Below, piece after piece: positions 5,811 to 25,564 of a stretch of 29,168 nucleotides of DNA (its first letter is position 1; each line of letters starts with the position of its first letter). A model generated the notes under the pieces. That model did not search any database, had not been told where the DNA came from, and worked only from the letters and a program-made list of their open reading frames with translations. The DNA lies in the NCBI GenBank assembly GCA_947177435.1, contig CAMWUM010000001.1, positions 1 through 29,168 of the forward strand, in the 5' to 3' direction. The DNA comes from an uncultured Muribaculaceae bacterium (GTDB lineage: Bacteria > Bacteroidota > Bacteroidia > Bacteroidales > Muribaculaceae). A program made the position numbers and the translations under genes.

Positions 5811-7130
5811 TTATTGATGGTGGCGAAGGTCGAGGAATTTGATGGGCTTGCGGCTTTTGGGGGGCATCACTTGGGAGGCGAGGAGGGCGGGGTCGACGAT
5901 TTCGATGCGCGGGGCCACGCGGATGCGGGAGCGGAATCGGTCTTTGAGGTCTTTGACCAGGGTGTCGGCCTGGTCGTGGGCGGCGGCGGGCTTGAGGCTG
6001 ATGCGCACGAGCACGTCGTCGGTGCCCGCTTCGCTCTCGGTGACTACCACCTGGTAGGCATCGACGTAGGCTGTGTTGTCGAGCACGTCGTTGATGGCCG
6101 GCGGGTAGAGGGTGGTGCCTTTGAGCTTGATCATATTATTTTTGCGGCCTACGAGCGGGGTGAGGCGGTAGGAGTTGCGGCCGCAGGGGCATTGCTCGGT
6201 GCGCTTGGCGGCGATGTCGCCGGTGCGGAATCGGAGCAGGGGCATGCCCTCGACGCCGAGGGTGGTGACCACCACCTCGCCGTACTCGCCGTCGGGCACG
6301 GGGAGGTTGTCGTCGCCAATGATTTCGACGATGATGAGTTCGGGGTGCACGTGTCCGCCGAGCCCGTGGCAGCACTCGCTGAAGGTGGCGCTCATCTCGG
6401 TAGACGAGTATGTGGCGAAGAGCTCGACGTCCCATTTCTCCTTGATGCGCTTGCCCAGGAGGTTGAGTGAGAAATCCTGCTCGCGCAGGCTCTCGCCGAT
6501 GCCGATGATGCGGCGAATACTGCTGGCGCGGTAGTCAATGCCGTTGTCCTCGGCGTACTGTATGAGGCGCAGGATGAACGACGGCACGCACATGATGGTG
6601 TCGGGCTTGATGCGGCGTATGGTGTCCCACTGGAGTTCGGGGATGCCGTTGCCGACGCGTATGACGCTGGCTCCGAGTTCGCGGATGCCGAGGAAATAGG
6701 CCAGTCCGGCCATAAACCGCTTGTCGAGGGTGGTCATCAGCTGCACGATGGAGCCGGGACGCAGGCCGGCGCACTCGAAAGATTTCTTCTCGTTATAGGC
6801 CAGGCGCTGCAGGTCGCTCTCGGTGCAGCAGAAGGTGACGGGGTCGCCGAGGGTGCCGGAGGTGGTGATGTAGTCGACGACTTTCTCGCGGGGCACGCAC
6901 AGGAAATCGGCGTTGCGCAGTTGCAGGTCGCGCTTCTCGGTGAACGGCAGGCGCTGCAGGTCGTCGATGGTCTTTATCGATGCGGGGTCGATGCCGTGCT
7001 CGGCAAACATCGACTGGTAATACGGCGAGTGTTCGGCCAGATAGGCGATGGCCTGGCGCAATTTCTCTTCTTGCAGCAGGCGTATGGCCTCTGGACTTTG
7101 AAACTCTATATCAATGTCGGTGTGATTCAT
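5811..7130 (-). CDS. PaaK-like adenylate-forming CoA ligase
   Basis: This 439-residue ANL-superfamily ligase has the size of phenylacetate-CoA ligases. The ATP-binding loop is YITTSGTLGDPV (87-98). The adenine/acid-binding region contains TYSSTEMSATFSECCHG, and the hinge region has LLRFRTGDIA followed by the CPCGR Cys pair typical of PaaK. A C-terminal swing domain starts near GRKNNMIKLKGTTLYP. It is the last gene of the pigment operon, overlapping the hydrolase gene by 4 bases (ATGA). Because the operon begins with a tyrosine ammonia-lyase, the likely substrate is 4-coumarate, activated to a CoA ester or directly to an ACP thioester. That substrate is inference; other aryl acids are possible. 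Confidence 0.88.
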   Translation of the reverse strand: MNHTDIDIEFQSPEAIRLLQEEKLRQAIAYLAEHSPYYQSMFAEHGIDPASIKTIDDLQRLPFTEKRDLQLRNADFLCVPREKVVDYITTSGTLGDPVTFCCTESDLQRLAYNEKKSFECAGLRPGSIVQLMTTLDKRFMAGLAYFLGIRELGASVIRVGNGIPELQWDTIRRIKPDTIMCVPSFILRLIQYAEDNGIDYRASSIRRIIGIGESLREQDFSLNLLGKRIKEKWDVELFATYSSTEMSATFSECCHGLGGHVHPELIIVEIIGDDNLPVPDGEYGEVVVTTLGVEGMPLLRFRTGDIAAKRTEQCPCGRNSYRLTPLVGRKNNMIKLKGTTLYPPAINDVLDNTAYVDAYQVVVTESEAGTDDVLVRISLKPAAAHDQADTLVKDLKDRFRSRIRVAPRIEIVDPALLASQVMPPKSRKPIKFLDLRHHQ

Positions 7131-7885
7131 TGATTGTCAAGTATTTTATTGTCTTTGAGCCAGGATATGAATGCGTCTTTCCACTGGCGGCACTCCTCGG
7201 TGCCGTGGCTGTCGCTGGCGCCGAATCCGTGGCCGCCTGTGCGGTACTGGATGTAGGTGTGCGGGGCGCCGGCCGACGTGAGGGCGGCGTGGAGCAGCTC
7301 AGAGTTCTGGTATTTAACGATGGGGTCGTCGACGCAGTTGGCCAGGAAGATGGGCGGCAGGTCGGCGCGGACGTGGCGTTCGAGCGACAGCGAGTCGCCT
7401 AGGGCTGCCTCTGCGGAGAACCGCTCGCCCATGATGGCGCGGCGCGAGCGGTGGTGCACGTACCGTTCGTCGGTGAGGGTGACCACGGGATAGAGCGACA
7501 CACAGAACGATGGGCCAAGCGGCTGGTCGGCCTTGATGCCGAGCGAGGCGAGATAGTCGACGTCGTGGCGCTCGGCGGCGTGCACGGCCAGGTGGCCGCC
7601 GGCCGAGAAGCCCATGATGCCCAGGCGGTCGGGATCGATGCCGTAGCGGTCGGCGTTGGCACGCAGCAGCTGGATGCTGCGCTGGGCGTCCTGTATGGGG
7701 CCGGGGAAGGTCATCTGCCCGGTGAGCAGGCGGTAATAGCTGGCGAATGCCCAGAATCCGGCCGTGCGGTAGCGCAGCACGAACGCGGCGATGCCAAGGC
7801 TCTGCAGCCACCGGCCCACCTTGACGCTCTCGCAGTAGGGGTCGAGCCAGAAGTAGCTGCCGCCGGGGCACACAATCACGCCCAC
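7127..7885 (-). CDS. Alpha/beta hydrolase (BD-FAE/esterase-like); start uncertain
   Basis: This is a serine hydrolase of the alpha/beta fold. The oxyanion region is VIVCPGGSYFWLD near the start, the nucleophile elbow is GFSAGGHL, the acid is in CVDDPIVKY and the His in TGGHGFG. Length from GTG 7885 is 252 residues, but this start falls inside the first beta strand. The same frame continues upstream to a stop at 8015-8017 and encodes family-like sequence (PINIWAGTS, then ARVTLTPYLPAPEHNTGVG). That extension contains no ATG, GTG or TTG; only ATT (8011), ATC (8002) and similar codons exist. The true N-terminus may use a rare codon, or a base is missing. Its role in the pigment cluster could be release or editing of acyl intermediates; the substrate is unknown. 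Confidence 0.82.
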   Translation of the reverse strand: MGVIVCPGGSYFWLDPYCESVKVGRWLQSLGIAAFVLRYRTAGFWAFASYYRLLTGQMTFPGPIQDAQRSIQLLRANADRYGIDPDRLGIMGFSAGGHLAVHAAERHDVDYLASLGIKADQPLGPSFCVSLYPVVTLTDERYVHHRSRRAIMGERFSAEAALGDSLSLERHVRADLPPIFLANCVDDPIVKYQNSELLHAALTSAGAPHTYIQYRTGGHGFGASDSHGTEECRQWKDAFISWLKDNKILDNQ

Positions 7886-8022
7886 GCCCGTGTTGTGCTC
7901 GGGGGCGGGGAGGTAGGGTGTGAGGGTGACACGGGCCTTGACGGACGTGCCGGCCCATATGTTGATTGGCGCGAAGCGACGCGCCTTAGTGTCGGTAGCG
8001 ATGGCGGTAATGGGTTAGGTGG

Positions 8023-8388
8023 TTACTGAGCGCTGATGATGCGCTTGGCTTGCTCGGGCGAGAGTTGGGTGTACTTGTGGGCAGGGTCGGCGTTGAAGTC
8101 GACAGCGAAGCACATCTCACCGTAAAACGACAGTTTGGAGTTGGTGTCGGGGTTGCATTCGACAAACGTTATCTTGTCGATGTCGAGGCCCTTGGCCTGG
8201 CATATCTGCTCGGCGAGCGATCGGCCGGCGTAAGTGACCGACGTGCCGGGGTTGTCCTGGTAAAGCTCCACGGCGAGCACGTAGGTGACGCCGTCGATAG
8301 TCCTGATTTTCAGGCCGCACGACGAGGGCATGTCCCACTGCCCCTTGAACTCGAAGATTTCGTCGTAATATTCCTTGGGTACTTTCAT
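8023..8388 (-). CDS. Small protein of unknown function inside the pigment operon
   Basis: I do not recognise this 121-residue protein. It starts MKVPKEYYDEIFEFKGQWD and has mixed alpha/beta character, three Cys residues (in SSCGLKI, EQICQAKG and FVECNPD) plus one near FYGEMCFAV, and no signal peptide or membrane segment. The alternation of short strands (LKIRTIDGVTYVLAVEL, KLSFYGEMCFAVDF) around a helix suggests a compact single domain. It lies 10 bases after the radical SAM stop and just before the hydrolase, with operon-like spacing. It could be a small accessory or partner protein for one of these enzymes; no function is claimed. Confidence 0.75.
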   Translation of the reverse strand: MKVPKEYYDEIFEFKGQWDMPSSCGLKIRTIDGVTYVLAVELYQDNPGTSVTYAGRSLAEQICQAKGLDIDKITFVECNPDTNSKLSFYGEMCFAVDFNADPAHKYTQLSPEQAKRIISAQ

Positions 8389-8398
8389 TTCTCGGAGA

Positions 8399-9685
8399 TT
8401 AATGTTTGATGTTGCGCTCCACTTTCTTGCCGAAGCTGTAGTTGGCCAATCGGCGGTCGCGGGGGCGGTAGGTGCCCTCGTTCATCTCGCGCAGAGCCAC
8501 CTGGCAGAAGAGTTTGAACATCTTTTGCTCCTGGCTCTCAGAGGCGTAGAAACTCTTCCAGGCATAGTCGTAGAGCTCTTGCAGGCGCTCGGGGCTCATG
8601 TGCTTGGGCTGGAACACGACCTGGCCGGCGTTGTAGTGATTCCAGTCGAAGTCGAAGATGCGGCCCTGGCGCAGCAGGTCGTCGTAGCCCTTGGTGTGGG
8701 GGAAGGGGGTCATGACGGTGAACTCGGCCAGGTCGAGGTCGATTTCGCCCAGGAAGTCAATCAGGCGCTTGATATCGTCCTCGGTCTGGTTGTCGACGCC
8801 GAGCAGGATTGTGCCCTCTACGCCGATGCCATAGTCATGGTAACGCTTTACGCGCTCCTTGATATAGTCGCTGGTGTCGTAGACGGCCTGGTATACGTAC
8901 CACGCGCCGGCCTTGGCGGCAAGGTCGAGCACCTCGGGATCGTCCTCGATGGTGTGGCTTATCCACTTTTTCTTGAGCGGGGCTATGGCACGGAACAGTT
9001 CTTTCTCCCACTCCTTATTCTGTGCCAGTGAGTTGTCGACGATGAAGAGGCGGTTGTTGTCAATCGCGGCCATGTCCTCGACTACCTTGTCGACGGGGCG
9101 CGGACGGAACACGCGGCCGCCCAGGTAGCTCACGGCGCAGGGATAGCAGCTGAATCGGCAGCCGCGCGATGCGTGGAAGAGGTCGACCATGGGCACGCCT
9201 TTATGGTTGTAGAGCTCGCGCTTGTAGAGGTCGCGGCGGCAGGGGCCGACCGACTCGATGGGCGGGAACTGGAGCATGAAGTTGTACACCTTCTTGAGCT
9301 TGCCCTCTTTCCAGTCAGCGAGTACCTGTTCCATGCGGCCCTCGGCCTCGCCCAGAAACACGCTGTCGAAGTGGTTGACGTTGTCCTCGGCGTGGAGCAT
9401 GGCGGATATGCCGCCGGTGATCACCTTTTTGCCTCGCTTCTGAAACTCCTCGGCGATGGCCCAGCCGCGCTTAACTTGCGTGCTGAGCATCATCGACACG
9501 GCCACCAGGTCGCATGGCTCGTCAAAGTTGATGTCCTCGACGTTCTCGTCGGTGAAAGATATGTCGACCCACTCGGGCAGGCAGGCGGCGAAGGCTACCG
9601 GGCCGTGAGGGGGGAGATTGAATGTGGTTTGTCCTCTGAGTTTTTCCCAGCGGGGATAAATCAGCTTAAGTTTTATTGTCTCCAT
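8399..9685 (-). CDS. B12-binding-type radical SAM protein
   Basis: This 428-residue protein has the layout of class B (cobalamin-binding-domain) radical SAM enzymes. Residues 1-140 form a Rossmann-like domain (DENVEDINFDEPCDLVAVSM, then KKVITGGISAM) without the DxHxxG His that ligates cobalt. The radical SAM core follows with the 4Fe-4S motif C176-RFS-C180-YP-C183, then GVEGTILLGVDNQTEDD, typical of the distal SAM-binding strand. The C-terminal about 100 residues resemble those of HpnJ-type proteins. Such enzymes carry out C-methylation, ring contraction or other radical modifications. Position between the CrtI-like pair and the 121-residue orphan suggests a tailoring step on the polyene, aryl head or lipid. 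The reaction is unknown. Confidence 0.88.
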   Translation of the reverse strand: METIKLKLIYPRWEKLRGQTTFNLPPHGPVAFAACLPEWVDISFTDENVEDINFDEPCDLVAVSMMLSTQVKRGWAIAEEFQKRGKKVITGGISAMLHAEDNVNHFDSVFLGEAEGRMEQVLADWKEGKLKKVYNFMLQFPPIESVGPCRRDLYKRELYNHKGVPMVDLFHASRGCRFSCYPCAVSYLGGRVFRPRPVDKVVEDMAAIDNNRLFIVDNSLAQNKEWEKELFRAIAPLKKKWISHTIEDDPEVLDLAAKAGAWYVYQAVYDTSDYIKERVKRYHDYGIGVEGTILLGVDNQTEDDIKRLIDFLGEIDLDLAEFTVMTPFPHTKGYDDLLRQGRIFDFDWNHYNAGQVVFQPKHMSPERLQELYDYAWKSFYASESQEQKMFKLFCQVALREMNEGTYRPRDRRLANYSFGKKVERNIKH

Positions 9686-9707
9686 ATTGCAAGTATGAGG
9701 CCGAGGG

Positions 9708-11237
9708 TCAGGCCTTGGCGGCGGTCGCCTCGTAATGTTGGTTTATCTTGTTGATTACGTAGTTTCGTCCCAGTAGTATCTCGGCGGTGACGATGGCCGT
9801 CAGGGGCACGCCGCAGATGCCATGCAGGTTGAGGCACTGGCCCGTGTAGTAGAGGTTTTGTACCTTGGTGACCGGGGCGATGTGCGAGAGCATGATGTCG
9901 CGGCAGTCCTTGCGGTAGCCGTAGATGGCGCCTTCGCGTGCGCCGTAGTAGTCACGCACGGTGAGGGGCGAGCTGCCCTCGACTTCGGCGATGGCGTCGC
10001 GCAGGTTGGGCAGCGACACGCATGCCAGGTCGATCAGGCGCTGGGTGTGCTCGTCCTTCCATTTCAGGTAGTCGCCGCCGCGATGGCCGTGCTTGGTATT
10101 CTCCCAGGGGGCTATCTGGTCCCACGTCATAGGGGCGGTGATCACCATGCGGTCGGCCCACTCGCCTTGGCCGGGCTGGGCGGGAGTCATGTACATCAAT
10201 CCCTGGGGCCAGTCCTGCGGGCCGCCGAGGTCGAACACCGACTCGTCGTGGCGCTTGACGTATGTGGTGTGGTTGATGTACGGTATCATGTTGGGCTTCA
10301 GTTTGATGAAGATGGTGAAGGCTGAGCAGGTGTTGGGGATGGCGTCGATGCGCTTGCGGTAAGCCTTGGTGAAAGCGTGCTCGGGCATGAGGTCGAGCAT
10401 CGAGCCCACGTGGATGGCCGAGATGTAGGCGTCGGCCGTGTGGCGCTCGCCGTCGGCGGTGACCACGGCGGTGATGCGCTTGCCCTCGACCTCCACCTCC
10501 TTGACCTCGGCGCCGGCCAGCACCTTGCCGCCGTTCTCCTCGATAACCTGTGCCAAGGCGTCGGCCAGTTGCTGGCTCGGGCCCACGAACCGGCGCGCGC
10601 CGTCGATGTAGAGGGTGTTGATGATGGAGTGCACGTAGGCCGGGGTCTCGCCCACGCGTCCGTCAAACAGGGGCGAGCGCAGCGAGAGCAAGTCGCGCAG
10701 GTGCTTGTCCTTGATGTACATGGCGATGAACTCGTCGGCGGGGATGGTGAAGTCGTCGCCGATCATCTGCCAGCTGTCGTAGTCGTAGGGGCGCAGGTAG
10801 AAGAGTCCCACCTGGTCGGTGATGGCGTACACGTGGTCGACGTAGCGCTCCAGACCCTCGCGCTCGTCGGGAAACTCGCGGGCCAGCGACTCGATAAATG
10901 CCTCGCGTCCCTGAGCCACGCGGTAGGTCTTGCCCGTGGCGGCGCAGGTGATCTCGTCGGCGCAGTCGTCGTCGACCTTGCGCATCTCGATGCGGTCGAG
11001 CACGCCGAGGTATGAGCAAATCTTGTCGAGGTTGCCGCCAGGCTCGAAGCCAACGAGCATGTGCATGCCGGTGTCGAAGCTCATGCCCCAGCGGCGAAAC
11101 GACTGCAATCCGCCGCCTATGGTGCGGTTCTTTTCGAGCACCTCCACGTCCCATCCCTCCTTGGCGAGGATGGCGCCGGTGAACAGGCCTCCAAGGCCGC
11201 CACCGATGATAATTGCCTTATTTTTTGTTGTCTCCAT
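9708..11237 (-). CDS. CrtI-like FAD-dependent oxidoreductase (second of a pair)
   Basis: This 509-residue flavoprotein belongs to the phytoene desaturase / carotenoid isomerase / retinol saturase superfamily. The dinucleotide-binding motif GGGLGG lies at 12-17 with the ribose-binding Glu near 35 (VEVLEKN). FDTGMHMLVGFEPGG at about 54-68 is typical of these enzymes. The C-terminal FAD motif is YYTGQCLNLHGICGVPL. It overlaps the upstream paralogue by 20 bases, implying coupled translation. It could desaturate, saturate or isomerise double bonds of the aryl polyene. True carotenoid synthesis is unlikely, since no phytoene synthase or prenyltransferase is present in the window. Confidence 0.9.
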   Translation of the reverse strand: METTKNKAIIIGGGLGGLFTGAILAKEGWDVEVLEKNRTIGGGLQSFRRWGMSFDTGMHMLVGFEPGGNLDKICSYLGVLDRIEMRKVDDDCADEITCAATGKTYRVAQGREAFIESLAREFPDEREGLERYVDHVYAITDQVGLFYLRPYDYDSWQMIGDDFTIPADEFIAMYIKDKHLRDLLSLRSPLFDGRVGETPAYVHSIINTLYIDGARRFVGPSQQLADALAQVIEENGGKVLAGAEVKEVEVEGKRITAVVTADGERHTADAYISAIHVGSMLDLMPEHAFTKAYRKRIDAIPNTCSAFTIFIKLKPNMIPYINHTTYVKRHDESVFDLGGPQDWPQGLMYMTPAQPGQGEWADRMVITAPMTWDQIAPWENTKHGHRGGDYLKWKDEHTQRLIDLACVSLPNLRDAIAEVEGSSPLTVRDYYGAREGAIYGYRKDCRDIMLSHIAPVTKVQNLYYTGQCLNLHGICGVPLTAIVTAEILLGRNYVINKINQHYEATAAKA

Positions 11238-12720
11238 TTGCTTCTTCGATTTGCCGGATAACCTCTCCGGAAGAAAGTATGAACGAGCATGCCACCACCG
11301 AGCCCACCATTACGCCCAGCAGGCCGTGCGAGTTGATGCTCTGGCCGGCCAGCAGCAGGTTGGGAATGCGCGTGCGGTGCGAGACGCGAGTCTCGTTGAG
11401 GTTTGTCACGTCCTTGGCCACGCCGTAGAGCGAGCCGTCGATGATGCCGGTGTAGTCGCGGTAGGTGAGGGGAGTGGACGTGTACACGCTGTCGATGGCC
11501 TGGCGCAGGCCGGGGAAATCTTTCTCCACCTCGTCGAGCAGGCGCTCGGTCTTCCGGCGCTTGAACTCCTCGTAGTCCTTGCCGCGACGGCCCACCTTGG
11601 TGTCGAGCCAGGGCTGGAGCTCGTCCATGCCCATGTATGTCAGCGCCATGGCCGACGATGCCCACTTGGCGCCGTCCTCGTGGCACATGTGCATGTACAG
11701 GTACGACTTGGGCCATTCCTCGGGCGTGCAGAACTGGCAGTCCCACACCTGTTCGGTGCGGTAGCCGAAGAAATTGTAATTCATGTACGGCATCGCCTCG
11801 GGCTTGAACTTGATGTACACCGCGAAGCTGCCCACCGAGTTGGGCAGGCGCTCGATGCGGTGGCGGAATGCCGGGCGTATAAGGTGCGACTTTATCAGCG
11901 CCATCGTGGCCGTGGGGTGGATGGTCGAGATGACGTGGTCGGCGGGGAAAAACTCGCCCGAAGCCGAGCGCACGCCCGTGGCGCGGGTGTCGTCGCATAC
12001 GATCTCGGCTGCCGGGGTGCGCGTCAGCACCTTGCCGCCGAGCGAGCTGAGCCGCTCGAGCATCTTCTCGGTCAGCGCGTCGCTGCCGCCGACGATGCGG
12101 TAGGCGCCCTGGCTGTAGAAATCCATGATGAATGCGTGGGTCGAGAATGGCGTCTTGCCCTTGGCACCGGCGTAGAGCGGGAGCTCACCTACCAGTACGT
12201 TCTGCAGCTTGGGGTCGGTTATTATCGAGCTTATGATGTCGTCGACGCTGCGCAGCAGGAATTCAGAGATTTCGCCGTTGCTGCTGTCGATGGGCTTGAG
12301 CGAGTGGAGGTTGGATGCCTCGGAGAACGAGCGCACCGTATCGTAGTACCGCTCGAGGTTTTCCCTTTGGTCGGGGAAGTCGGCGGCAAGCGTCTCGACA
12401 AACTTCTCGCGGCCGTTGGCTATCTTGTACCTTTTGCCGGCTATTGACACCACGTCGAATCCGTCGGGGTCGAGCTGCGACAGGGGCAGGTCGTCAACTC
12501 CCATGTATTTGAGCAGGCGGTAGGCCGGTTCTCCCGGGCGCATCGAGCCGATGAAGTGCATGCCGGTCTCGAACTTGGCGCCTCGGCGCGAGAAGCATTG
12601 CAGGCATCCGCCGGGCTGCACGCCCTGCTCGAGGATGGTCACCTCGTGGCCGTTGCGGGCCAGTATCAGTCCGCACGACAGGCCTCCGAGGCCGCTGCCT
12701 ATGATTACGACTTTGCTCAT
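11218..12720 (-). CDS. CrtI-like FAD-dependent oxidoreductase (first of a pair)
   Basis: This 500-residue protein is a paralogue of the adjacent oxidoreductase. The FAD-binding motif is GSGLGG (8-13), with Glu31 in TILEQG and RGAKFETGMHFIGSM near 45-59. The C-terminal signature is LLAGQSINSHGLLGV, as in CrtI/CrtO/retinol-saturase relatives. The start ATG overlaps the PlsC stop by 4 bases (ATGA) and the end overlaps the next oxidoreductase by 20 bases. The two proteins share layout but differ clearly in sequence, so they probably do distinct steps or form a heterodimer rather than being a recent duplication. The substrate is inferred to be the cluster's polyene or acyl chain. Confidence 0.9.
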   Translation of the reverse strand: MSKVVIIGSGLGGLSCGLILARNGHEVTILEQGVQPGGCLQCFSRRGAKFETGMHFIGSMRPGEPAYRLLKYMGVDDLPLSQLDPDGFDVVSIAGKRYKIANGREKFVETLAADFPDQRENLERYYDTVRSFSEASNLHSLKPIDSSNGEISEFLLRSVDDIISSIITDPKLQNVLVGELPLYAGAKGKTPFSTHAFIMDFYSQGAYRIVGGSDALTEKMLERLSSLGGKVLTRTPAAEIVCDDTRATGVRSASGEFFPADHVISTIHPTATMALIKSHLIRPAFRHRIERLPNSVGSFAVYIKFKPEAMPYMNYNFFGYRTEQVWDCQFCTPEEWPKSYLYMHMCHEDGAKWASSAMALTYMGMDELQPWLDTKVGRRGKDYEEFKRRKTERLLDEVEKDFPGLRQAIDSVYTSTPLTYRDYTGIIDGSLYGVAKDVTNLNETRVSHRTRIPNLLLAGQSINSHGLLGVMVGSVVACSFILSSGEVIRQIEEANGDNKK

Positions 12721-13478
12721 GGATGGGAGGGGGTGTTAGAGAGTGCTTGTTGTATGATGTCTTTGGCCTGGCGGCACGTCTGGGCGTATGCGGCCTGCGG
12801 GTCGTAGGGTATGCGGGGCAGGATTTCGATGTCGATGGTGCCTGGGCGCAGGCAGAACGACCCTCGGGGCATCACGTCGCGCGCGCCCTTGATGGCCACA
12901 GGCACGATGTCGAGTCCGAGCTGCTGGGCGGCCTCGAAGGCGCCGCGGTGGAAGCGGCCCAGACGGCCTGTGCGAGATCGCGTGCCCTCGGGGAATATGA
13001 TGGTGGAGTAGCCCTTTTGGGCCATTTGGCCGATTTTGCGCATGTTCTCGATGCGGTCAGTGCTGCTCGAGATGTAGTCGGCATAGTGTATCATCAGGCC
13101 GTACAGCGGATTGCGAGTCACCCACTTCTTGGCCATGATTATCACGTGGGGGGTGAGCATGATCATGCACGGCAGGTCGAGGTACGACTGATGGTTCGGC
13201 ACGATCATGGCCGGGCGGGTGAAGTCCTCGCCCGTGGGGTTGGTTACGGTCACCTTCACGCCGGGCAGGTGGGTCATAATCGCGCGCAGGGTGCGCTGCA
13301 TGATGCGGTGCAGTCCGAGTTTGCGGCTGTCGGTGGCCTTGTGGGTGGAGAAGTAGATCAGGCAGGCCAGCTGGCCGAAGAACATGAGTACGAATATCAC
13401 CACGAAGCAGATGATGAACGCCCCCGTGAGCATCGTGATTTCTATGGCCGACCAGGCCCGTTTCAGCAGTCCCTTCAT
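12717..13478 (-). CDS. PlsC-like 1-acylglycerol-3-phosphate acyltransferase family protein
   Basis: This 253-residue protein is a membrane-associated acyltransferase of the LPLAT/AGPAT family. A long N-terminal hydrophobic stretch (about 14-44) anchors it in the inner membrane. The catalytic motif is NHQSYLD (95-101) and the phosphate/glycerol-binding motif is FPEGTRS (162-168). It overlaps both neighbours by 4 bases. Aryl-polyene and flexirubin clusters usually carry such a gene, which is thought to transfer the finished acyl chain to a lipid or sugar acceptor. A housekeeping phosphatidic-acid role is possible but less likely given the context. Confidence 0.9.
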   Translation of the reverse strand: MKGLLKRAWSAIEITMLTGAFIICFVVIFVLMFFGQLACLIYFSTHKATDSRKLGLHRIMQRTLRAIMTHLPGVKVTVTNPTGEDFTRPAMIVPNHQSYLDLPCMIMLTPHVIIMAKKWVTRNPLYGLMIHYADYISSSTDRIENMRKIGQMAQKGYSTIIFPEGTRSRTGRLGRFHRGAFEAAQQLGLDIVPVAIKGARDVMPRGSFCLRPGTIDIEILPRIPYDPQAAYAQTCRQAKDIIQQALSNTPSHP

Positions 13479-14594: not shown

Positions 14595-14603
14595 TGGTGG
14601 GGG

Positions 14604-17101: not shown

Positions 17102-17107
17102 AGTGTA

Positions 17108-18811: not shown

Positions 18812-18815
18812 ATCA

Positions 18816-19259
18816 TTAAATCAGGCCGTTGGCCTCTTTCCATTTTTGGTAGAATTCGGGGTTGAGCCACACCAGATGGTAGTCGCGGTCCATAAACACC
18901 TGCACGGTGCGGCCCGTGGCCAGCAGTTCCTCGGTGTCGCGGTTGCGTATCTCGTAGGTGAACACAATCTTAGCGGCCTCGGTGGCGTGGTAGGTGATGT
19001 CGACGCGGCACTGCATGCCGTACACCGCCGGGCTCTTGAACTCGTAGGTCATCTCCACGAGCGGGGCGTAGTATCCGTTGTCGAAGATGGTGAGGTAGCC
19101 GAGGTTGTACTTGCGGCCGAACGCCTCGCGGGCGTCTTCGAAATAGAGCGGGTAAGAGCCGTGCCATACAATGTTCATCGAGTCCACCTCGGAAAACCTC
19201 GGGGTGAACTCGCAGCTGGCTTTCAGCGTCTTGCCTTCGTCTTTAGTCTTTTTTCTCAT
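18816..19259 (-). CDS. Hot-dog thioesterase (FcbC/YbgC-like)
   Basis: This 147-residue single hot-dog domain matches 4-hydroxybenzoyl-CoA thioesterase relatives. The signature RFSEVDSMNIVWHGSY (21-36) holds the catalytic Asp26 and His33, followed by PLYFEDAREAFG. It would hydrolyse an acyl thioester, either releasing the finished polyene from the ACP or clearing aberrant intermediates. Aryl-polyene loci commonly encode one such enzyme. It is packed between the ApeP-like dehydratase (2-base gap) and the 567-residue ketosynthase. Confidence 0.88.
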   Translation of the reverse strand: MRKKTKDEGKTLKASCEFTPRFSEVDSMNIVWHGSYPLYFEDAREAFGRKYNLGYLTIFDNGYYAPLVEMTYEFKSPAVYGMQCRVDITYHATEAAKIVFTYEIRNRDTEELLATGRTVQVFMDRDYHLVWLNPEFYQKWKEANGLI

Positions 19260-19261
19260 AG

Positions 19262-19723
19262 TCAGTTCTGGGCCACGATGCCGCTAAGGGCTATTTTCAT
19301 TTCGCATTCGCACACGGTCTCGCCGTCAACCTTGATGGTGGCGGCCACGAGCATCATGCCGAACACGTCCTCGAGCACGTCGATCTGCGTGCTCAACCGC
19401 TCGCCCACGCGGGGCAGGCGCAGCACGCGGGCGTGGCGCATGGCGCCGATGAAGCCCAGGCGTATGGGCTGGCCCGAGATTAGGTTGCAGTATCCAATAT
19501 GGGCGGCGCACGTCTGGGCGATGTTCTCCATCATGCCAAAGGCGGTGAACCGGCCCTCGGGGTCGCAAAATATGTTGTCGGCCCTGACGGCCAATTCGCT
19601 GCGCGAACTTGCGGGCTCGCAACTGGCCAGGCGGTCAATCATTACGATCGGGGGCCGCTGGGGCAGCAGCGTGAGCACGTCGAGGGCGGCGCAGTCGGGT
19701 ATAGGATTATTCCCAGAAGTCAT
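19262..19723 (-). CDS. ApeP-like hot-dog dehydratase
   Basis: This 153-residue hot-dog protein begins with a FabZ-like PQRPPIVMIDRL (21-32), where the His of the usual P-H-R is Gln. The central helix FGMMENIAQTCAAHIGY (62-78) carries Glu66, the probable conserved acidic residue. It resembles the ApeP family of aryl-polyene dehydratases, which acts together with a FabZ-like ApeI partner; that partner is probably the protein at 14232-14594. It overlaps the acyltransferase gene by 17 bases. It could alternatively be a non-catalytic partner. Confidence 0.82.
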   Translation of the reverse strand: MTSGNNPIPDCAALDVLTLLPQRPPIVMIDRLASCEPASSRSELAVRADNIFCDPEGRFTAFGMMENIAQTCAAHIGYCNLISGQPIRLGFIGAMRHARVLRLPRVGERLSTQIDVLEDVFGMMLVAATIKVDGETVCECEMKIALSGIVAQN

Positions 19724-20603
19724 AGTAGTTAAACCATTGGGTTGGATACTTTCTTAGTTCGGCTTCGAGGGCCGAGGCGAAATTCTGCGCGATGGTCTGC
19801 TCGAGTTCGGCGCGGCTGAGTCCGTCAGGCAGGCCGTCGGTGAGCGAGCGCACCACCATGTGGTAGTCGCGGTAGCGGCCTTTCATCACAAACGCGGTGA
19901 TCACCGGGGCGCCGCGCTGGGCGGCCGTGGCGAACGGGCCGCGCGGGAACTTGGCGGGGCGGCCGAAGAAGTCGCACACGATGTACTTGGTCGAGCCGAA
20001 GAGGCGGTCGCCGGGGATGCTCACCACCTCGCCGCGGCGCAGGGCATTGTTGATTTCGAACAGGTGCGACATGTCGTCGTTGACGAATATCATGTTGGTG
20101 CCCGTCACGGCGAACTGCTCGCGGCGGTTGTCCATGATTGACTTCACCTCCTTGCCGTATGACACGGTGTTGATGCGCTTCTTGGTCGACGTCAGCGAGT
20201 AGCCGGCCATCTCGTAGCAGCCGGTGTGCGAGCTGATGACCATGAAGCAGCCGGGCTTTTCGGCCAAGTTGTCAAATATCTCACGGCCTTCGACCGTGAT
20301 GTTGAACTTCTTGCCGGCGTACTTGGCAAAGCGGTCGGTGATGATCTGGCCGAATCTGAAATGGTTTTTCAGTACGCCCAGCATCGACTTGAAGCGGCCC
20401 CAGCCCATCGCTTGGCGGAAAAACTGGTAGGTGACCCGCCGGCTCTTGGGGCTGAACGTGAGATAGCCAAGCACATAGAACACCAGCACGCTGTAATGCA
20501 GCCAAAGCGGCGTCCAGCGCATCACAGGGATGATGGCCCGGTGCAGAAACTGCGGGCCATCGGTTGTACCCTGCCATTGCTTGTGTTCCAAGGTCTCGGC
20601 CAT
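19707..20603 (-). CDS. LpxL/HtrB-like lysophospholipid acyltransferase
   Basis: This 298-residue membrane-associated acyltransferase belongs to the LPLAT superfamily. A hydrophobic segment is present at about 33-50 (LWLHYSVLVFYVLGYLTF). The catalytic HxxxxE motif is His126-Glu131 in SSHTGCYEMAG. Members of this group sit in nearly all described aryl-polyene loci, where they are proposed to move the acyl chain from ACP to a membrane anchor. This operon also has an unrelated PlsC enzyme, so two separate acyl transfers are possible. It starts 15 bases after the ACP stop. Confidence 0.87.
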   Translation of the reverse strand: MAETLEHKQWQGTTDGPQFLHRAIIPVMRWTPLWLHYSVLVFYVLGYLTFSPKSRRVTYQFFRQAMGWGRFKSMLGVLKNHFRFGQIITDRFAKYAGKKFNITVEGREIFDNLAEKPGCFMVISSHTGCYEMAGYSLTSTKKRINTVSYGKEVKSIMDNRREQFAVTGTNMIFVNDDMSHLFEINNALRRGEVVSIPGDRLFGSTKYIVCDFFGRPAKFPRGPFATAAQRGAPVITAFVMKGRYRDYHMVVRSLTDGLPDGLSRAELEQTIAQNFASALEAELRKYPTQWFNYYDFWE

Positions 20604-20618: not shown

Positions 20619-20861
20619 TTAGCCGACCTTGGACTGAATGTAGTCGCAGAATTGCGAGAGGGTGGTGACGCCGGCCATCTCCTCGGGCTTGATCTTGAAG
20701 CCGAAGTTCTTTTCGACGATCACAACGATGTCGACGAAGTCGAGGCTGTCGATGCCGATGTCGTCGCGCAGGGTGGCCTCAGGCTTGATCTTGTCTTCTT
20801 CGATTTCAAGGTCTTCGATGAGGAAGAGCTTAACTTTTTCTTCTATTTCTTCGCGTGTCAT
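20619..20861 (-). CDS. Acyl carrier protein
   Basis: This 80-residue acidic helical protein is an ACP with the phosphopantetheine attachment Ser in DDIGIDSLDFVDI. It is the first of two ACPs in the cluster and differs clearly in sequence from the other (16844-17101). That suggests different partners, for instance starter-unit loading versus elongation. It begins after a 75-base repeat-filled gap following the methyltransferase gene and precedes the LpxL-like acyltransferase. Confidence 0.95.
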   Translation of the reverse strand: MTREEIEEKVKLFLIEDLEIEEDKIKPEATLRDDIGIDSLDFVDIVVIVEKNFGFKIKPEEMAGVTTLSQFCDYIQSKVG

Positions 20862-20871: not shown

Positions 20872-20950
20872 TTATTAGAGTTATTAGAGTAATCAGAGTA
20901 ATCGGATAGGAATTTTCAATTCTCCATTCTCCATTTTCAATTTTCCATTT
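20872..20950. repeat. Intergenic short tandem repeats between methyltransferase and ACP genes
   Basis: Two adjacent arrays fill most of the 75-base gap. On the plus strand, 20872-20907 has 9-base units TTATTAGAG, TTATTAGAG, TAATCAGAG and TAATCGGAT. From about 20911 follows a run of interleaved TTTTCAATT / TCTCCATTC / TTTTCCATT words that extends into the last codons of the methyltransferase gene and supplies its stop codon. I recall similar intergenic A/T-rich word repeats in other Bacteroidales. No promoter or hairpin is obvious here. Confidence 0.75.
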
Positions 20951-22043
20951 CCGGGAGTCGGCACACCATAATGCTGTGGCCTTGGCCCAGACCGTCGTGG
21001 ATGGTCTCGACCTCCATGCCGGCCTTGCGCACCAGGCGCTCCATCACCTCGCTGTGGTACATGCGGCTGTTGCCGTTGGCTAGGGCGGTGAAATACAGGC
21101 TCGTCATAGTCAGGCACAGGGTGGCCGGCTCGAAGCGCTGGCGGTCCCAAAGTGTCTCCATGATGTAGAGTCGGCTGTCGGGGCCCATCACTCGGGCGGC
21201 ACGGCGCAGGATCGACACGATCTCAGGCTCGGAGAAGCAGTCGAGGAACTGGCTCATCCAGATGGCGTCCCAGCTGCCTGCGGGGAAGGCTGCGTCGGGG
21301 TCGAGCAGGTTGATGCCATGGCCGTGGATGCGGTCGGCGCCCGGCATGCCGTCGGTGGCCTTGCGCATCATCTCGATCTGCTGCGGCAGGTCGAGGATGG
21401 TGACCTGCACGTCAGGGTCGTAGGCCACGCAGCGGCTGGCCCAGCGTCCGGTGTTGCCGCCCACGTCGAGCAGAGTGCGCGGATGGCGGCCGAAGACTAT
21501 CTCGAGCGCCTGGTCGAACGAGCCGTCGCTGTAGAAATGGTCGAAGCCGAACCAACTGCGCTGCACGTCGGCAGGCAGCTGCGACAGGCCCTCGTAAATC
21601 GTGGGCCACGAGCCGAAGTGCTCCAGGCCTGCGGGGCGGCCCTCAAGCAGGGCATCTTGCAGGCGGTGCCAGCCTATGTAGTTGACATCGTGGTTGAAGT
21701 CCATGTTGGCGCGGGTGGCCTTGTCGGTGATGAGAAACCATCCGGCCTTGGCCAGCGAGAAGCGGTCGGTATCGGGGTCGACGAGCACGGTGCCGATCGA
21801 GAGCGAGGCCTCGAGCAGCACGGTGGCGGCGTAAGGCGAGATGCCGGCGCGCTCGGCCACTTCGTCAATGGTCATGCCCTGGTCGCTGTCGCGCAGCATG
21901 TCGAGGATGCCGAGCTTGAGCATCGAGCGCGAGGCCTGGAACACGACCGGACCCCAGGCGATGAACTCAGCCAGGCGCTGGGCGTCACGAGCCGAAAGCT
22001 GTTCCTTGGTATATTTCTCTTTTAGTGCCTTGGATAGGTGCAT
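20937..22043 (-). CDS. SAM-dependent methyltransferase (plant-OMT-like fold), probably aryl C-methylation
   Basis: This 368-residue protein has an N-terminal winged-helix dimerisation domain (about 20-110) and a C-terminal Rossmann methyltransferase domain. SAM motif I is LLDVGGNTGRWA (191-202), with a motif-II-like ILDLP at 216-220. In O-methyltransferases of this fold the catalytic base His lies in a Leu-His-Asp-Trp stretch; the aligned stretch here is FLDCF (266-270) with Asp268, so the His is missing. Aryl-polyene head groups are C-methylated next to the phenol, so methylation of the ring carbon is a plausible role. It lies 4 bases downstream of the ketosynthase gene. The stop codon falls inside the downstream A/T-word repeat. 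Confidence 0.85.
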   Translation of the reverse strand: MHLSKALKEKYTKEQLSARDAQRLAEFIAWGPVVFQASRSMLKLGILDMLRDSDQGMTIDEVAERAGISPYAATVLLEASLSIGTVLVDPDTDRFSLAKAGWFLITDKATRANMDFNHDVNYIGWHRLQDALLEGRPAGLEHFGSWPTIYEGLSQLPADVQRSWFGFDHFYSDGSFDQALEIVFGRHPRTLLDVGGNTGRWASRCVAYDPDVQVTILDLPQQIEMMRKATDGMPGADRIHGHGINLLDPDAAFPAGSWDAIWMSQFLDCFSEPEIVSILRRAARVMGPDSRLYIMETLWDRQRFEPATLCLTMTSLYFTALANGNSRMYHSEVMERLVRKAGMEVETIHDGLGQGHSIMVCRLPEMEN

Positions 22044-22047
22044 GGGC

Positions 22048-23268
22048 TTATATCTTTTTGATTACCAGTGCGCTGTTGGTGCCGCCGAAGCCAAACGAGT
22101 TGCTGAGCACTACGTTGACGGGCATGTCTACGGCCACGGGCGTGATGTTGAGGCCGGCGCTGTACTGGTCAGGGTTTTCAAAGTTGGCGTTGCCGGCCAC
22201 GAAGTCGTTGCCCATCATGATGAGCGAGTACACGATTTCACTGGCGCCGGCCATCCAGCACTCGTGGCCGGTGAGCGACTTGGTGCTGCTGATCAGCGCC
22301 TTCTTGCCGCCGAATAGGCGCTGCAGGGCCTTGGCTTCGTACATGTCGCCCTGGGGCGTGGAGGTGGCGTGGGCGTTGATGTAGTCTACTTGGTCGGCTG
22401 CGATGCCGGCGTCGTCGAGGGCGCGCTGCATGGCGATGATTGAGCCGTCGTCGCTGGCCTGCGAGATGCCGCCGCCGTTTGACGAGAAGCCGTAGCCGAC
22501 CACTTCGGCCAGGATGTTGGCGCCACGAGCCACGGCGTGCTCGTATTCCTCAAGCACCACGGCAGCAGCGCCGCCGCTGGGGATGAGGCCGTCGCGGTCG
22601 CGGTCGAAGGGACGCGAGGCGCGGGTGGGCTCGTCCATGCGCTTTGAGAACGCGTTGAGGGCGTCGAACGAAGCCATCGAGTAATGGTTGGTCTCCTGAG
22701 CGCCGCCGGCCAGAATCATATCCTGCAAGCCGCTCTTGATCAGCAGGTAGGCCAGGCCGATCGAGTGTGAGCCGCTGGCGCAGGCGGCACTGACGGTGAA
22801 GCTTACGCCGCGCAGGCCGAATATGGTATTGAGATTCATCGTCACCGTCGAATTCATCGACTGGAATATCAGGCCCGAGCCGATGAGAGCCGAGTCGTGC
22901 TTCTCGGCCATAATGTTGGCCGACTTGATGACGGGCTCAGCCGAGGAGTCGTTGCCAAAGATGAGGCCAACCTCGTTGTGCGCCAGATAGTCGGCGTCGA
23001 CGCCGGCCATGTCGAAGGCCTGCTTGCCTGCCACGAAGGCGTACTCGGCCTCCTCGGGGAGACCGGCGCGCACGCGGCGGTCGAGCACGCCCTTCAGCAC
23101 GGGGCGGGCCACCTTGCCGGTCAGGGCCGACTGGTAGCCGTACTCGAGGCGCTCGGGGTCGAAAACGATGCCCGACTTGCCGTGGTACAGCGAGTCCTTG
23201 ACTTCATCTATGCTTGTTCCCAGGCACGACCAGATGCCCATGCCGGTGATGACTACTCTTTTGCTCAT
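22048..23268 (-). CDS. FabF-type 3-oxoacyl-ACP synthase
   Basis: This 406-residue ketosynthase has the FabF length and layout. The nucleophile is Cys163 (VSAACASGSHS), with His300 (INAHATSTPQGD) and His335 (SLTGHECWM). It catalyses decarboxylative condensation of malonyl-ACP with the growing chain in the cytoplasm. It is the third ketosynthase of the operon and the only one without an extra domain. It may start chain growth from the activated coumaroyl unit, or work alongside the KS-CLF fusion. A 46-base gap containing an 8-base repeat array separates it from FabG upstream. Confidence 0.93.
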   Translation of the reverse strand: MSKRVVITGMGIWSCLGTSIDEVKDSLYHGKSGIVFDPERLEYGYQSALTGKVARPVLKGVLDRRVRAGLPEEAEYAFVAGKQAFDMAGVDADYLAHNEVGLIFGNDSSAEPVIKSANIMAEKHDSALIGSGLIFQSMNSTVTMNLNTIFGLRGVSFTVSAACASGSHSIGLAYLLIKSGLQDMILAGGAQETNHYSMASFDALNAFSKRMDEPTRASRPFDRDRDGLIPSGGAAAVVLEEYEHAVARGANILAEVVGYGFSSNGGGISQASDDGSIIAMQRALDDAGIAADQVDYINAHATSTPQGDMYEAKALQRLFGGKKALISSTKSLTGHECWMAGASEIVYSLIMMGNDFVAGNANFENPDQYSAGLNITPVAVDMPVNVVLSNSFGFGGTNSALVIKKI

Positions 23269-23278: not shown

Positions 23279-23302
23279 TTGTCAAGTTGTCAAATTGTCA
23301 AA
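23279..23302. repeat. Three tandem 8-base units between fabG-like and KS genes
   Basis: The plus strand reads TTGTCAAG, TTGTCAAA, TTGTCAAA in direct tandem inside the 46-base gap between the FabG-like and ketosynthase genes. Each unit contains a TTGTCAA core. The array may be replication slippage or a protein-binding site. No hairpin is evident. Confidence 0.7.
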
Positions 23303-23314
23303 TTTTTGCCGGGG

Positions 23315-24040
23315 CTAATAAAGGCCTCCGTTGATCGAGATGGCCTGGCCGGTGATGTAGGCGGCCTCGTCGCTGGCCAGGAAGCCGGCCAGGGCGGCCA
23401 CCTCCTCGGCTTTGCCGAATCGGCCCATGGGCACCATCTTCTTGAGCTCGTCCTTGGGCAGGTCGCGCGTCATGTCGCTGTCGATGAAGCCCGGAGCGAT
23501 GGCGTTGACCGTCACCTTGCGCACGGCCACCTCCTGCGCCAGCGCCTTGGTGGCGCCGATGAGCGCGGCCTTGGCAGCCGAGTAGTTGGCCTGGCCGGGC
23601 AGGCCTTTGAGGCCGGAGAGCGAGGCCATATTGATGACGCGTCCCCAGCGCTTGGTGAGCATGTCTTTGAGCAGGCGGCGGGTGAGGTAGAAAAATCCGT
23701 TGAGCGTGGTGTCGAGCACGGTGTGCCACTCGTCGTTCTGCATGAAGATCATCATGTTGTCGCGGCGGATGCCAGCGTTGTTGACCAGCACGGCCACATA
23801 GTCGTCGGGGTGGGCCTGCTGCCAGGCCTCAACTGCGCTCTCCACCTGCTGGGGATCGCTGACGTCAAACTTCAGCAGCTCGGCCTTGGCGCCCAGGGCC
23901 TCGCATTCGGCTTTGACGGCCTCGGCGGCCTGGTCGTTGGCCACGTAGTTGATGACGACGGGATACCCCATCTGGGCTAATTTCAGGCACACTGCGCGTC
24001 CGATGCCGCGGCTGCCTCCGGTGACTAATGCGTACTTCAT
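23315..24040 (-). CDS. FabG-like 3-oxoacyl-ACP reductase
   Basis: This 241-residue classical short-chain dehydrogenase reduces the 3-oxoacyl-ACP with NADPH in each elongation round. The cofactor motif is TGGSRGIGR (7-15), NNAG lies at 87-90, and the catalytic set is Ser140 (INMASLSG), Tyr153 and Lys157 (YSAAK). The C-terminus ends ITGQAISINGGLY, typical of FabG. It follows the ammonia-lyase by 3 bases, placing it second in the pigment operon (the ApeQ role). Cluster context makes it more likely a dedicated polyene reductase than the housekeeping FabG. Confidence 0.93.
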   Translation of the reverse strand: MKYALVTGGSRGIGRAVCLKLAQMGYPVVINYVANDQAAEAVKAECEALGAKAELLKFDVSDPQQVESAVEAWQQAHPDDYVAVLVNNAGIRRDNMMIFMQNDEWHTVLDTTLNGFFYLTRRLLKDMLTKRWGRVINMASLSGLKGLPGQANYSAAKAALIGATKALAQEVAVRKVTVNAIAPGFIDSDMTRDLPKDELKKMVPMGRFGKAEEVAALAGFLASDEAAYITGQAISINGGLY

Positions 24041-24043
24041 GAT

Positions 24044-25564
24044 TTATTTGAGGTTGATCGGATGGTTTCTTAGGTGGCTCTCCATCTTGGAGATTTCTTC
24101 GTAGAAAGGCGTGTCCTCCACAAACTTGGGGCATATCTGTCGGGCGGCGTCGTAGGCGGCGCGGGTGGCCGGGGCCAGGCGGTCGGCTATGCCCAGGCAG
24201 TCGGTGGCTTGGGCCATGGCGATGAAGTGGATGGCCATCACCTGGTAGGCGTTGTCGATCACCTGGCGGCAGAGCAGGGCCGAGTTGGTGCCCATGCTCA
24301 CGATGTCCTGGTTGTCGTTGTTGTTGGGGATGCTGTGCACGTAGTTGGGCATCGACAGGGTCTGGCACTCGGCCGTGGTGGACGTGGCGGTGAACTGGCA
24401 GGCCTGTATGCCGTAGTTGAGGCCAAGCACGCCGAGGTTGAGGAACGGCGGCAGGATGCCGTTGATGCGGTCGTGGCACAGGTAGTTGAGTTGGCGCTCG
24501 GCGGTCATGGCCAGGCGTGTGACGGCAATCTTCATCTTGTCTTGCTCGAGCGAGATGTAGTCGCCGTGGAAATTGCCGCCGTGGTAGACGTTGCGGGTGT
24601 CAGGGTCGATTATAGGGTTGTCGCAGGCCGAGTTGAGTTCGCGGTTGAGCGTGTCGGCAGCGTTTTGGAGCGTGTCGTAGACCGGGCCGAGTATCTGCGG
24701 GGTGCAGCGCAGCGAGTAGTAGGCCTGCACCTTGTGCTCGAAGTAGTCGGCCTGGTTGTTGGCCGGGTCGTAGAGCTCATGCTCGCGTTTCTGCAGGCAC
24801 TGGCTGCCGCGGGCGAGCTCTCGCATCTGGCGGGCGGTGACCTGCTGGCCGGGCTGGCGGCGGCATACGTTCTCGGGCTCCGACATCCAGTCGTCAAACG
24901 ACGAGGCTATCTCGTTCATCCACACAGCTGCCAGCACGCTCCAGTCGAGCAGTCGGCGGGCGAAGACGTAGTTGAGCACGCCGATGCCGGTCATGATTGA
25001 CGTGCCGTTGGTGACCGACAGGCCCTCACGCACGTAAATCTGCATAGGCTCAAGCCCCTCTGCAGCCATCATCTGGGCGGTGGGCGTCCACTGGCCGTGG
25101 TAGCGCACCTTACCCTCGCCGATCAGGCACAGGGCTATGTGGGCCAGCTGCACCAGGTCGCCGCTTGCTCCCACGCTGCCGTGGCGGGGGATGTAGGGGA
25201 TGATGTTTCGGTTGATAAACTCCGTGAGCAGGCGCACCACCGAGGGGTGCACGCCCGAGCGGCACTGCAGGAAGGTGCCTACGCGGGCCACCATGGCCGA
25301 ACGCACGCTGTCGTCGTCGAGGGGCTCGCCGGCTCCGGTGGCATGGCTCCGTATGATGTTGTACTGCAGTTGTTTCAGGTTAGCATCCGATACACGCCAC
25401 TGTGCCATAGGGCCGAAGCCGGTGTTGATGCCGTATATGACGCGGTCTTTGGCGAATGATTCGAGAAATTCGTAGCAGTCGAGCATCTTAGCGTACGCCT
25501 CGGCTGAGATTTCCAGTTTTCCGCCGTGGAAAATAATGTTTTCTATGTCGGTTACGCTTACCAT
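24044..25564 (-). CDS. Tyrosine ammonia-lyase of the flexirubin type (HAL/PAL/TAL family)
   Basis: This MIO-dependent ammonia-lyase has 506 residues from the ATG at 25564. An in-frame TTG at 25591 exists but lies inside the promoter -7 element, so ATG is preferred. The MIO-forming Ala-Ser-Gly is in GSVGASGDLVQLAH (about 129-142 of this start). VIYGINTGFGPMAQW near the N-terminus and the helix YVHSIPNNNDNQDIVSMG are strongly reminiscent of the flexirubin-linked tyrosine ammonia-lyase of Flavobacterium johnsoniae. The substrate-selectivity pair reads Ser-His in IRSHATG, as in that enzyme and also in histidine lyases. In this context 4-coumarate from tyrosine, as starter for the polyene, is the best reading; histidine lyase is the alternative. 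Confidence 0.92.
   Translation of the reverse strand: MVSVTDIENIIFHGGKLEISAEAYAKMLDCYEFLESFAKDRVIYGINTGFGPMAQWRVSDANLKQLQYNIIRSHATGAGEPLDDDSVRSAMVARVGTFLQCRSGVHPSVVRLLTEFINRNIIPYIPRHGSVGASGDLVQLAHIALCLIGEGKVRYHGQWTPTAQMMAAEGLEPMQIYVREGLSVTNGTSIMTGIGVLNYVFARRLLDWSVLAAVWMNEIASSFDDWMSEPENVCRRQPGQQVTARQMRELARGSQCLQKREHELYDPANNQADYFEHKVQAYYSLRCTPQILGPVYDTLQNAADTLNRELNSACDNPIIDPDTRNVYHGGNFHGDYISLEQDKMKIAVTRLAMTAERQLNYLCHDRINGILPPFLNLGVLGLNYGIQACQFTATSTTAECQTLSMPNYVHSIPNNNDNQDIVSMGTNSALLCRQVIDNAYQVMAIHFIAMAQATDCLGIADRLAPATRAAYDAARQICPKFVEDTPFYEEISKMESHLRNHPINLK

Follow-up and report, generated by a model that had tools for sequence, protein, structure and literature searches.

The 29,168-base contig CAMWUM010000001.1 of an uncultured Muribaculaceae bacterium (assembly GCA_947177435.1), referred to here as the window, carries 20 co-directional genes on its minus strand, running from 25591 to 5811. 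In the order of reading, these encode a tyrosine ammonia-lyase (TAL), a FabG-like ketoreductase, a ketosynthase (KS1), a methyltransferase, an acyl carrier protein (ACP1), an LpxL-type acyltransferase, a dehydratase half (DH1), a thioesterase, KS2, ACP2, KS3, a second dehydratase half (DH2), a GT2 glycosyltransferase, a PlsC-type acyltransferase, two CrtI-like oxidoreductases (CrtI1 and CrtI2), a radical S-adenosylmethionine (SAM) enzyme, a small protein, a hydrolase and a CoA ligase. All genes listed in an initial annotation of this region are present on one strand, and 15 of the 19 intergenic distances are below 20 bases, seven of them being overlaps. The exceptions measure 46, 75, 22 and 137 bases, and the last of these shrinks because the GTG at 7885 lies inside the stretch of hydrolase homology, which begins at 7969. 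The source metagenome-assembled genome (MAG; G000 among the genomes compared here) comprises 2.0 Mb in 311 contigs and is 78.6% complete and 0.08% contaminated. It is a real aryl polyene operon of Bacteroidales type, ordinary for the most part but lacking a linked exporter, and its product is very probably a yellow, tyrosine-derived polyene lipid related to the flexirubins.

Priming and assembly of the polyene

Four proteins score above the curated NCBIfam equivalog cut-offs for flexirubin biosynthesis. These are the FlxA-type TAL (24044..25591; NF053541, 815.8 bits, cut-off 700), the FlxB-type ketoreductase of the short-chain dehydrogenase/reductase type (23315..24040; NF053542, 408.7 bits, cut-off 340), the FlxJ-family SAM methyltransferase (20937..22043; NF053543, 590.2 bits, cut-off 560) and the FlxY-type 4-coumarate-CoA ligase (5811..7130; NF053551, 678.0 bits, cut-off 520). 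The TAL has the ASG motif of the 4-methylideneimidazole-5-one (MIO) group at residue 142. Its frame opens with a TTG at 25591, and the ATG that lies inside it at 25564 is the likely start. FlxA and FlxY of Chitinophaga pinensis have been assayed as a tyrosine ammonia-lyase and a 4-coumarate-CoA ligase (PMC3992019). By orthology with these enzymes, the TAL would convert tyrosine into 4-coumarate and the ligase would convert 4-coumarate into 4-coumaroyl-CoA. A second aromatic amino-acid lyase in the MAG (L002; G000:C175:2104-3555) is 31% identical to the TAL and is perhaps a histidine ammonia-lyase. The methyltransferase matches PDB entry 3dp7 with 531.7 bits, and the next match, SibL, reaches 58.6. 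Entry 3dp7, solved as a 'SAM-dependent methyltransferase', is a close relative of the FlxJ-family enzyme and may be an unrecognised aryl polyene enzyme.

The three ketosynthase proteins named in the initial annotation were recovered as such, but they contain five KS-type domains. KS1 (22048..23268) is FabB-like, with Cys163, His300 and His335. KS2 (17108..18811) is an ApeO-like ketosynthase followed, at about residues 373-567, by a fused half-size domain resembling a chain-length factor (CLF), and KS3 (14604..16847) joins a ketosynthase (Cys161, His294, His333) to a second KS-like domain without the KS cysteine motif. The active-site motifs of all three are intact. The best solved match of KS2 is ApeO (6qsp_A, 114.6 bits; next match 98.9). 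A sequence search with its C-terminal 195 residues gave no match, and a model of this part (pLDDT 81.9) matched first the ishigamide CLF 6kxe_B (E 1.8e-5, TM 0.56 on the query, rmsd 8.0) and second ApeC 6qsp_B (E 4.3e-5, TM 0.54 on the query, rmsd 7.6). Because ordinary KS folds follow close behind, from E 1.3e-4 on, a CLF-like domain is a fair reading of the model rather than proof.

Uniqueness of these fusions to the window was considered and rejected. Among 24 relatives' loci the halves of KS2 are fused in 9 and encoded by separate genes in 15, and those of KS3 are fused in 10 and separate in 14. Relatives' loci were mapped in 31 cases, with the distant G281 and G195 omitted from the gene table and the near duplicates G025 and G383 both among those counted. 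Contig ends cut the stretches of G347, G305, G403, G316, G350, G369, G399 and G378, of which G350, G369 and G399 were partly completed later. The FlxJ-type methyltransferase, used as cluster marker, occurs in 19 of 119 genomes of the family, including the window's own.

ACP1 (20619..20861; Ser39) and ACP2 (16844..17101; Ser41) both match PF00550, and the 4HBT-type thioesterase (18816..19259) matches PF13279. The two hot-dog proteins appear to share one set of catalytic residues. DH1 (19262..19723) scores below the cut-offs of the FabZ models and has kept the catalytic glutamate, not the histidine: in an alignment of 19 DH1 proteins, all have the glutamate within an EN[IVM]AQ stretch and HFP is missing. 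DH2 (14232..14594; PF07977) has kept the histidine, not the glutamate, with HFP in 15 of 15 aligned proteins and Gln, Gly, Ala or Lys at the position of the FabZ glutamate. These residues were read against what we take to be the FabZ motif, and MAFFT did not line up the DH1 glutamate with the corresponding DH2 position. Read in this way, the two subunits jointly carry the catalytic histidine and glutamate, a pattern that fits a single active site formed by two proteins. In E. coli, ApeI and ApeP form a heterodimer. The E. coli cluster likewise has these two dehydratases (PMC8253772).

The remaining core enzymes are the LpxL-type acyltransferase (19707..20603; PF03279, HX4E motif at 126), the GT2 glycosyltransferase (13475..14239; PF00535) and the PlsC-type acyltransferase (12717..13478; PF01553), the last of which corresponds in many relatives to the C-terminal part of an MMPL-PlsC fusion. 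The genes for coumaroyl-CoA formation, a type II polyketide synthase with ketoreductase and dehydratase, a methyltransferase, a thioesterase, a GT2 enzyme and two acyltransferases are thus directly visible in the operon. In the pathway that we propose, the polyketide synthase (KS1, the fused proteins KS2 and KS3 with their CLF-like parts, and both ACPs) would extend coumaroyl-CoA with malonyl units, FlxB would reduce each keto group, and DH1 and DH2 would act as a single dehydratase in a predicted complex with a common active site. FlxJ would methylate the ring, the thioesterase would release the acid, and the LpxL-type acyltransferase, GT2 and PlsC may attach it to a glycosylated or glycerol-type lipid. 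Lipid attachment has similarly been proposed for ApeD and ApeJ (PMC8253772). Export to the outer membrane would depend on an MMPL/LolA module outside the operon, probably at a second locus that is not in the MAG. We therefore propose, with reasonable though not full confidence, that the operon makes a coumarate-primed, ring-methylated aryl polyene on a lipid, without a dialkylresorcinol and with export through a second locus. As no dialkylresorcinol would be made, the product would be flexirubin-like and not a flexirubin. The initial annotation had guessed at much the same product, an aryl polyene that starts from coumarate and is attached to a glycosylated lipid, and the scores of FlxA and FlxY together with the presence of GT2 and the acyltransferases agree with it. 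A coumarate-derived polyene without dialkylresorcinol is a testable prediction of the operon.

The dialkylresorcinol half and the exporter

The 20-gene run contains no FabH-like gene. The absence of dar genes from the cluster had at first been seen as unusual; in C. pinensis, though, darA/darB (Cpin_6850/6851) also lie apart from flxA-flxY (Cpin_1853-1877) (PMC3992019). Going by that account, separate dar genes are normal, and their absence from the cluster alone says nothing. In whole genomes, matches to the FabH C-terminal family number one each in G000, G393, G406, G385, G286 and G411, two in G185, three in G235, four in G283 and none in G410. G393, G406 and G286 are 99% complete. The FabH gene of the window's MAG follows a DUF177-like gene, with another ATPase-like gene following, and the sole copy of G393, a genome of the same genus, likewise follows a DUF177-like gene, there with an Era-like gene following (gene names read from sequence); G406, also of this genus, has one copy. 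With such a neighbour, the single FabH homologue identified in the MAG resembles a housekeeping copy. The part that would supply the dialkylresorcinol of a true flexirubin is thus probably missing, a statement that covers the DarB side, DarA having no reference sequence for a search. This agrees with the earlier suggestion that the product is not a true flexirubin.

The first alternative is a true flexirubin pathway whose darA/darB genes are unlinked to the cluster, like those of C. pinensis. The four proteins above flexirubin equivalog cut-offs, the separate dar locus of C. pinensis and the 78.6% completeness of the MAG all speak for it, as do the DarB-marked resorcinol clusters reported from mouse-gut Bacteroidaceae (PMC9007364). 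The single FabH-type match in each of six genomes, three of them 99% complete, and the housekeeping-like neighbour of the copy in the MAG speak against it, and we regard this alternative as improbable.

The operon's real oddity is that it contains none of LolA, MMPL and EamA. Eight family relatives whose clusters lack the radical SAM gene (G235, G351, G324, G406, G393, G386, G025 and G383) have EamA-like, LolA and MMPL genes inside the cluster stretch, and so have G286, G101 and G185, where the radical SAM gene is present. MMPL and LolA are lacking from the main cluster of the window, G329, G385, G350 and G369. A scan of the radical SAM alignment against genome contigs gave 515 confirmed loci, of which the best 80 were kept as named loci; 4 of the 54 named loci that hold KS3c are without MMPL and LolA there (L122 to L125, three of which are judged to be the loci of G369, G329 and G385). 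In the related genus g196, LolA and MMPL stand together at a second, unlinked locus in all five genomes tested (G329, G385, G350, G369 and G399). The order at this locus is KS1-LolA-small protein-hydrolase-MMPL in G329, G350 and G369; in G399 the locus is cut at its start, and in G385 it has no KS1 and no small protein. At L202, L203 and L205 (G369, G350 and G329), KS1 is found at the second locus with LolA, hydrolase and MMPL, and none is shown in the main operon. In G003, EamA-LolA-MMPL lie on a different contig from the cluster. The initial annotation was right that the run has no MMPL or LolA gene. This is a real difference from most relatives, but related genomes carry both at a second locus.

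Neither was found in the rest of the MAG, which at 78.6% completeness may have missed them: the MMPL-PlsC profile matched PlsC parts only and LolA was unmatched. Both LolA and MMPL were matched in all ten other genomes searched alongside it. The Pfam MMPL family has eight matches in the MAG. Two of these eight were read (contigs C194 and C31) and were rejected as the missing exporter, since they lie beside adaptor proteins and read as CusA/RND-type. The named locus L124 (positions 1-19261) has the window's gene order from DH1 to the CoA ligase, with GT2 and PlsC fused and with no EamA, LolA or MMPL. MMPL was not found in its genome, G410, nor was FabH, for which reason G410 is probably incomplete. 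A second LolA-MMPL locus that was lost from the MAG assembly is the simplest and most likely account of the missing exporter. That biosynthesis and export can be divided between two loci is also a warning that cluster-based mining can misjudge exporters.

Alternatively, the polyene lipid may be kept in the inner membrane, or moved by a general RND/MMPL protein, in a variant of the pathway without an exporter of its own. The operon without EamA, LolA and MMPL would fit this, as would the contrast between the MAG and the ten other genomes in the search, which covered LolA and MMPL genome-wide but not EamA. The MMPL genes missing from both the MAG and G410 leave some room for such a pathway. However, the MAG is incomplete and G410 probably so, and all five g196 genomes with a similar main operon have LolA and MMPL at the second locus. 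Moreover, E. coli lost its pigmentation with deletions in most of the core and transport genes, although the apeM extract retained a low yellow colour and the results for apeL and apeN may be polar (PMC8253772). An exporter-free variant therefore seems unlikely to us. That the operon has decayed or fallen silent after loss of the exporter is very hard to believe, as 19 of the 20 genes have open frames of the expected lengths and the motifs checked (KS, ACP, TAL and acyltransferases) are intact, even if the exporter and EamA genes are absent and the hydrolase has no ATG, GTG or TTG start upstream of its homology.

Several points weigh against a lipid-bound aryl polyene without dialkylresorcinol that is exported through a second locus. 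Its structure is deduced from the genes, and the action of the CrtI-like and radical SAM enzymes on the polyene from their linkage. The absence of DarB is read from one incomplete genome and its relatives, whereas two to four FabH-like proteins are present in each of G235, G185 and G283, and DarB-marked resorcinol clusters are reported from mouse-gut genomes, mainly of Bacteroidaceae (PMC9007364). The MAG and G410 both show no MMPL beyond PlsC parts. Lastly, eight clusters from the same family that are otherwise alike have neither the small protein nor the radical SAM enzyme.

The radical SAM enzyme and its neighbours

The radical SAM gene (8399..9685) is preceded by the genes for the FAD oxidoreductases CrtI1 (11218..12720) and CrtI2 (9708..11237) and followed by those for the small conserved protein (8023..8388) and an alpha/beta hydrolase of the BD-FAE/esterase type (7127..7969; PF20434). 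The radical SAM enzyme matches PF04055 above the cut-off. An N-terminal B12-binding domain is probable; PF02310 reaches 22.7 bits, below its cut-off of 32.1, and many of the 120 homologues listed carry a precomputed PF02310 match. Its CxxxCxxC cluster motif reads CRFSCYPC, with Cys176, 180 and 183 invariant in seven sequences. The score against TIGR04013 is 60.9, below the cut-off of 251, and assignment to the ladderane-type family TIGR04072 was rejected (37.7, cut-off 360). The start of the hydrolase is uncertain. Homology to the L124 protein reaches 7969, upstream of the first ATG, GTG or TTG (window 7885-8020), so that a rare start codon or an assembly error is possible, and the GTG at 7885 is probably internal to the gene.

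The initial annotation took these added genes to be unusual and the small protein to be an orphan. Neither description holds: each of these kinds of gene, from the CrtI-like enzymes and the B12-type radical SAM enzyme to the small protein and the hydrolase, turns up again in dozens of Bacteroidales genomes. The small protein lies at most 600 bases downstream of the radical SAM gene in 79 of the 80 named loci (the best 80 of 515), and in the sole exception, L164, the contig stops at the radical SAM gene. As the named loci are the best-scoring ones, they are a sample of close relatives, 83-89% identical. Of the same 80 loci, 74 matched the hydrolase and 71 the CoA ligase. Two CrtI segments were found in 38 of the 72 named loci with at least 3.2 kb of upstream sequence, one in 31 (segments merged by rule) and none in three. 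For the small protein, 1,976 of 2,264 candidates were homologues at E <= 0.001, and family and fold searches gave no family match and no confident fold match for it. The gene set is thus standard for many Bacteroidales. Judging from record titles, the loci are mostly from rumen and gut MAGs. One of them, L125 (JAMPBP010000001.1), is titled 'Clostridiales bacterium' and carries a typical Bacteroidales cluster; the title looks wrong. Another, L126 of Caecibacteroides pullorum AN421, has the radical SAM enzyme, the small protein, a CrtI pair, LolA and MMPL, and no CoA ligase was matched in its sequence, which is available from KS3 on. Elsewhere the radical SAM enzyme is rare. In a sample of 395 genomes of the phylum it was found once (E <= 1e-60), and it was found once among 49 genomes of the same genus, in both cases in the window's own genome.

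The absence of the radical SAM enzyme and small protein from eight similar clusters indicates that they are not required for the core pathway and are a tailoring addition. Among the relatives compared, no operon protein is more conserved than the radical SAM enzyme, with 85-88% identity to five relatives and 70% to G283; core proteins are 34-75% identical to those of G286, one of the five. In G283 (L044:9052-10718), the radical SAM and small-protein genes share a divergent operon with genes for an ACP and a BtrH-like paralogue. This operon adjoins a canonical-like flexirubin cluster, which contains another radical SAM gene, and the arrangement supports a functional link. Going by linkage, the two CrtI-like enzymes, the radical SAM enzyme and the small protein may tailor the polyene or its anchor. 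More tentatively, they could form an anaerobic tailoring module that adds a carbon-carbon modification, by C-methylation or ring closure, to the aryl polyene or to the lipid that anchors it; we consider this possible, if doubtful. We found no description of such a module in the available texts of the aryl polyene and flexirubin literature. If the module exists, gut Bacteroidales would make an undescribed class of polyene lipids. The pair of radical SAM enzyme and small protein is the unexplained step of the pathway and its point of highest interest.

Related clusters and surroundings of the operon

Flexirubin-type clusters have been reported from five of six Bacteroidetes classes and at least five families (PMC9248904), and aryl polyene clusters from the Muribaculaceae genus CAG-486 (PMC9007364). 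Aryl polyene clusters are also reported to be common in rumen genomes, where they make up 2,800 of 14,814 clusters from 8,160 genomes (PMC8241843). No chemistry of Bacteroidales-type aryl polyenes was found in the literature searched. With the flexirubin clusters of C. pinensis (flxA-flxY) and Flavobacterium johnsoniae, the operon has FlxA, FlxB, FlxJ and FlxY in common at equivalog level, as well as several KS proteins, two dehydratases, GT2 and acyltransferases (PMC3992019). It differs in that no DarB candidate was found in the 78.6% complete MAG and in that the operon lacks the LolA, polysaccharide deacetylase and exporter listed for flxP-flxU (PMC3992019). It adds the radical SAM enzyme, small protein and hydrolase, which are not named for C. 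pinensis in the available text of that paper. The G283 cluster runs LolA, DH2, GT2, MMPL-PlsC, CrtI, then two other genes and finally the CoA ligase, an arrangement compatible with the content of flxP-flxY as given there, the letter-by-letter pairing being our own.

The proteobacterial ape clusters (E. coli CFT073, Xenorhabdus and Acinetobacter) resemble the operon in their KS with half-size CLF (ApeO-ApeC) and FabB-like KS (ApeR). They also have two ACPs, two dehydratases, a ketoreductase, a thioesterase, a methyltransferase and a set of glycosyl- and acyltransferases for attachment (PMC8253772; PMC8358021). Unlike these clusters, which are primed by 4-hydroxybenzoate, the operon would be primed by coumarate from the TAL and CoA ligase. 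In addition, its KS-CLF parts are fused and it has no ApeL/ApeM-like transport genes, in a comparison in which ApeN-like genes were not searched. The anammox ladderane clusters offer a further parallel, with type II fatty acid synthesis, phytoene-desaturase-like and radical SAM genes (PMC2649909). However, the window has aryl-priming enzymes and its radical SAM enzyme falls outside TIGR04072, so this parallel is an analogy only. There is also a likeness to the Bacteroidales clusters of G286, G101 and G185, which have nearly all genes in the window's order, including the radical SAM enzyme, the small protein (matched by tblastn) and the hydrolase. In contrast to the window, EamA-LolA and MMPL-PlsC are part of these clusters, and the CoA ligase is followed by an extra PlsC-type gene (AT369), which 66 of the best 80 of 515 loci also have. 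The thioesterase had no match in the G286 and G101 clusters.

As the window is the entire contig, the surroundings of the operon can be read for 3.6 kb upstream and 5.8 kb downstream only. The flanking genes look unrelated to it: GH25, DUF4919 and endonuclease I on one side, and Fic, Asd, a Na/H antiporter and a GT2 on the other. The GC content is 61.6% in the cluster and 58.9% in the flanks, which places the contig at the high end of the MAG, nine other stretches of which range from 51.6 to 59.8%. The Fic protein, which has a winged-helix C-terminus (4816-5799, minus strand), had no match above 120 bits in the relatives' cluster stretches. Its gene starts only 11 bases after that for the CoA ligase and may therefore be co-transcribed with the operon.

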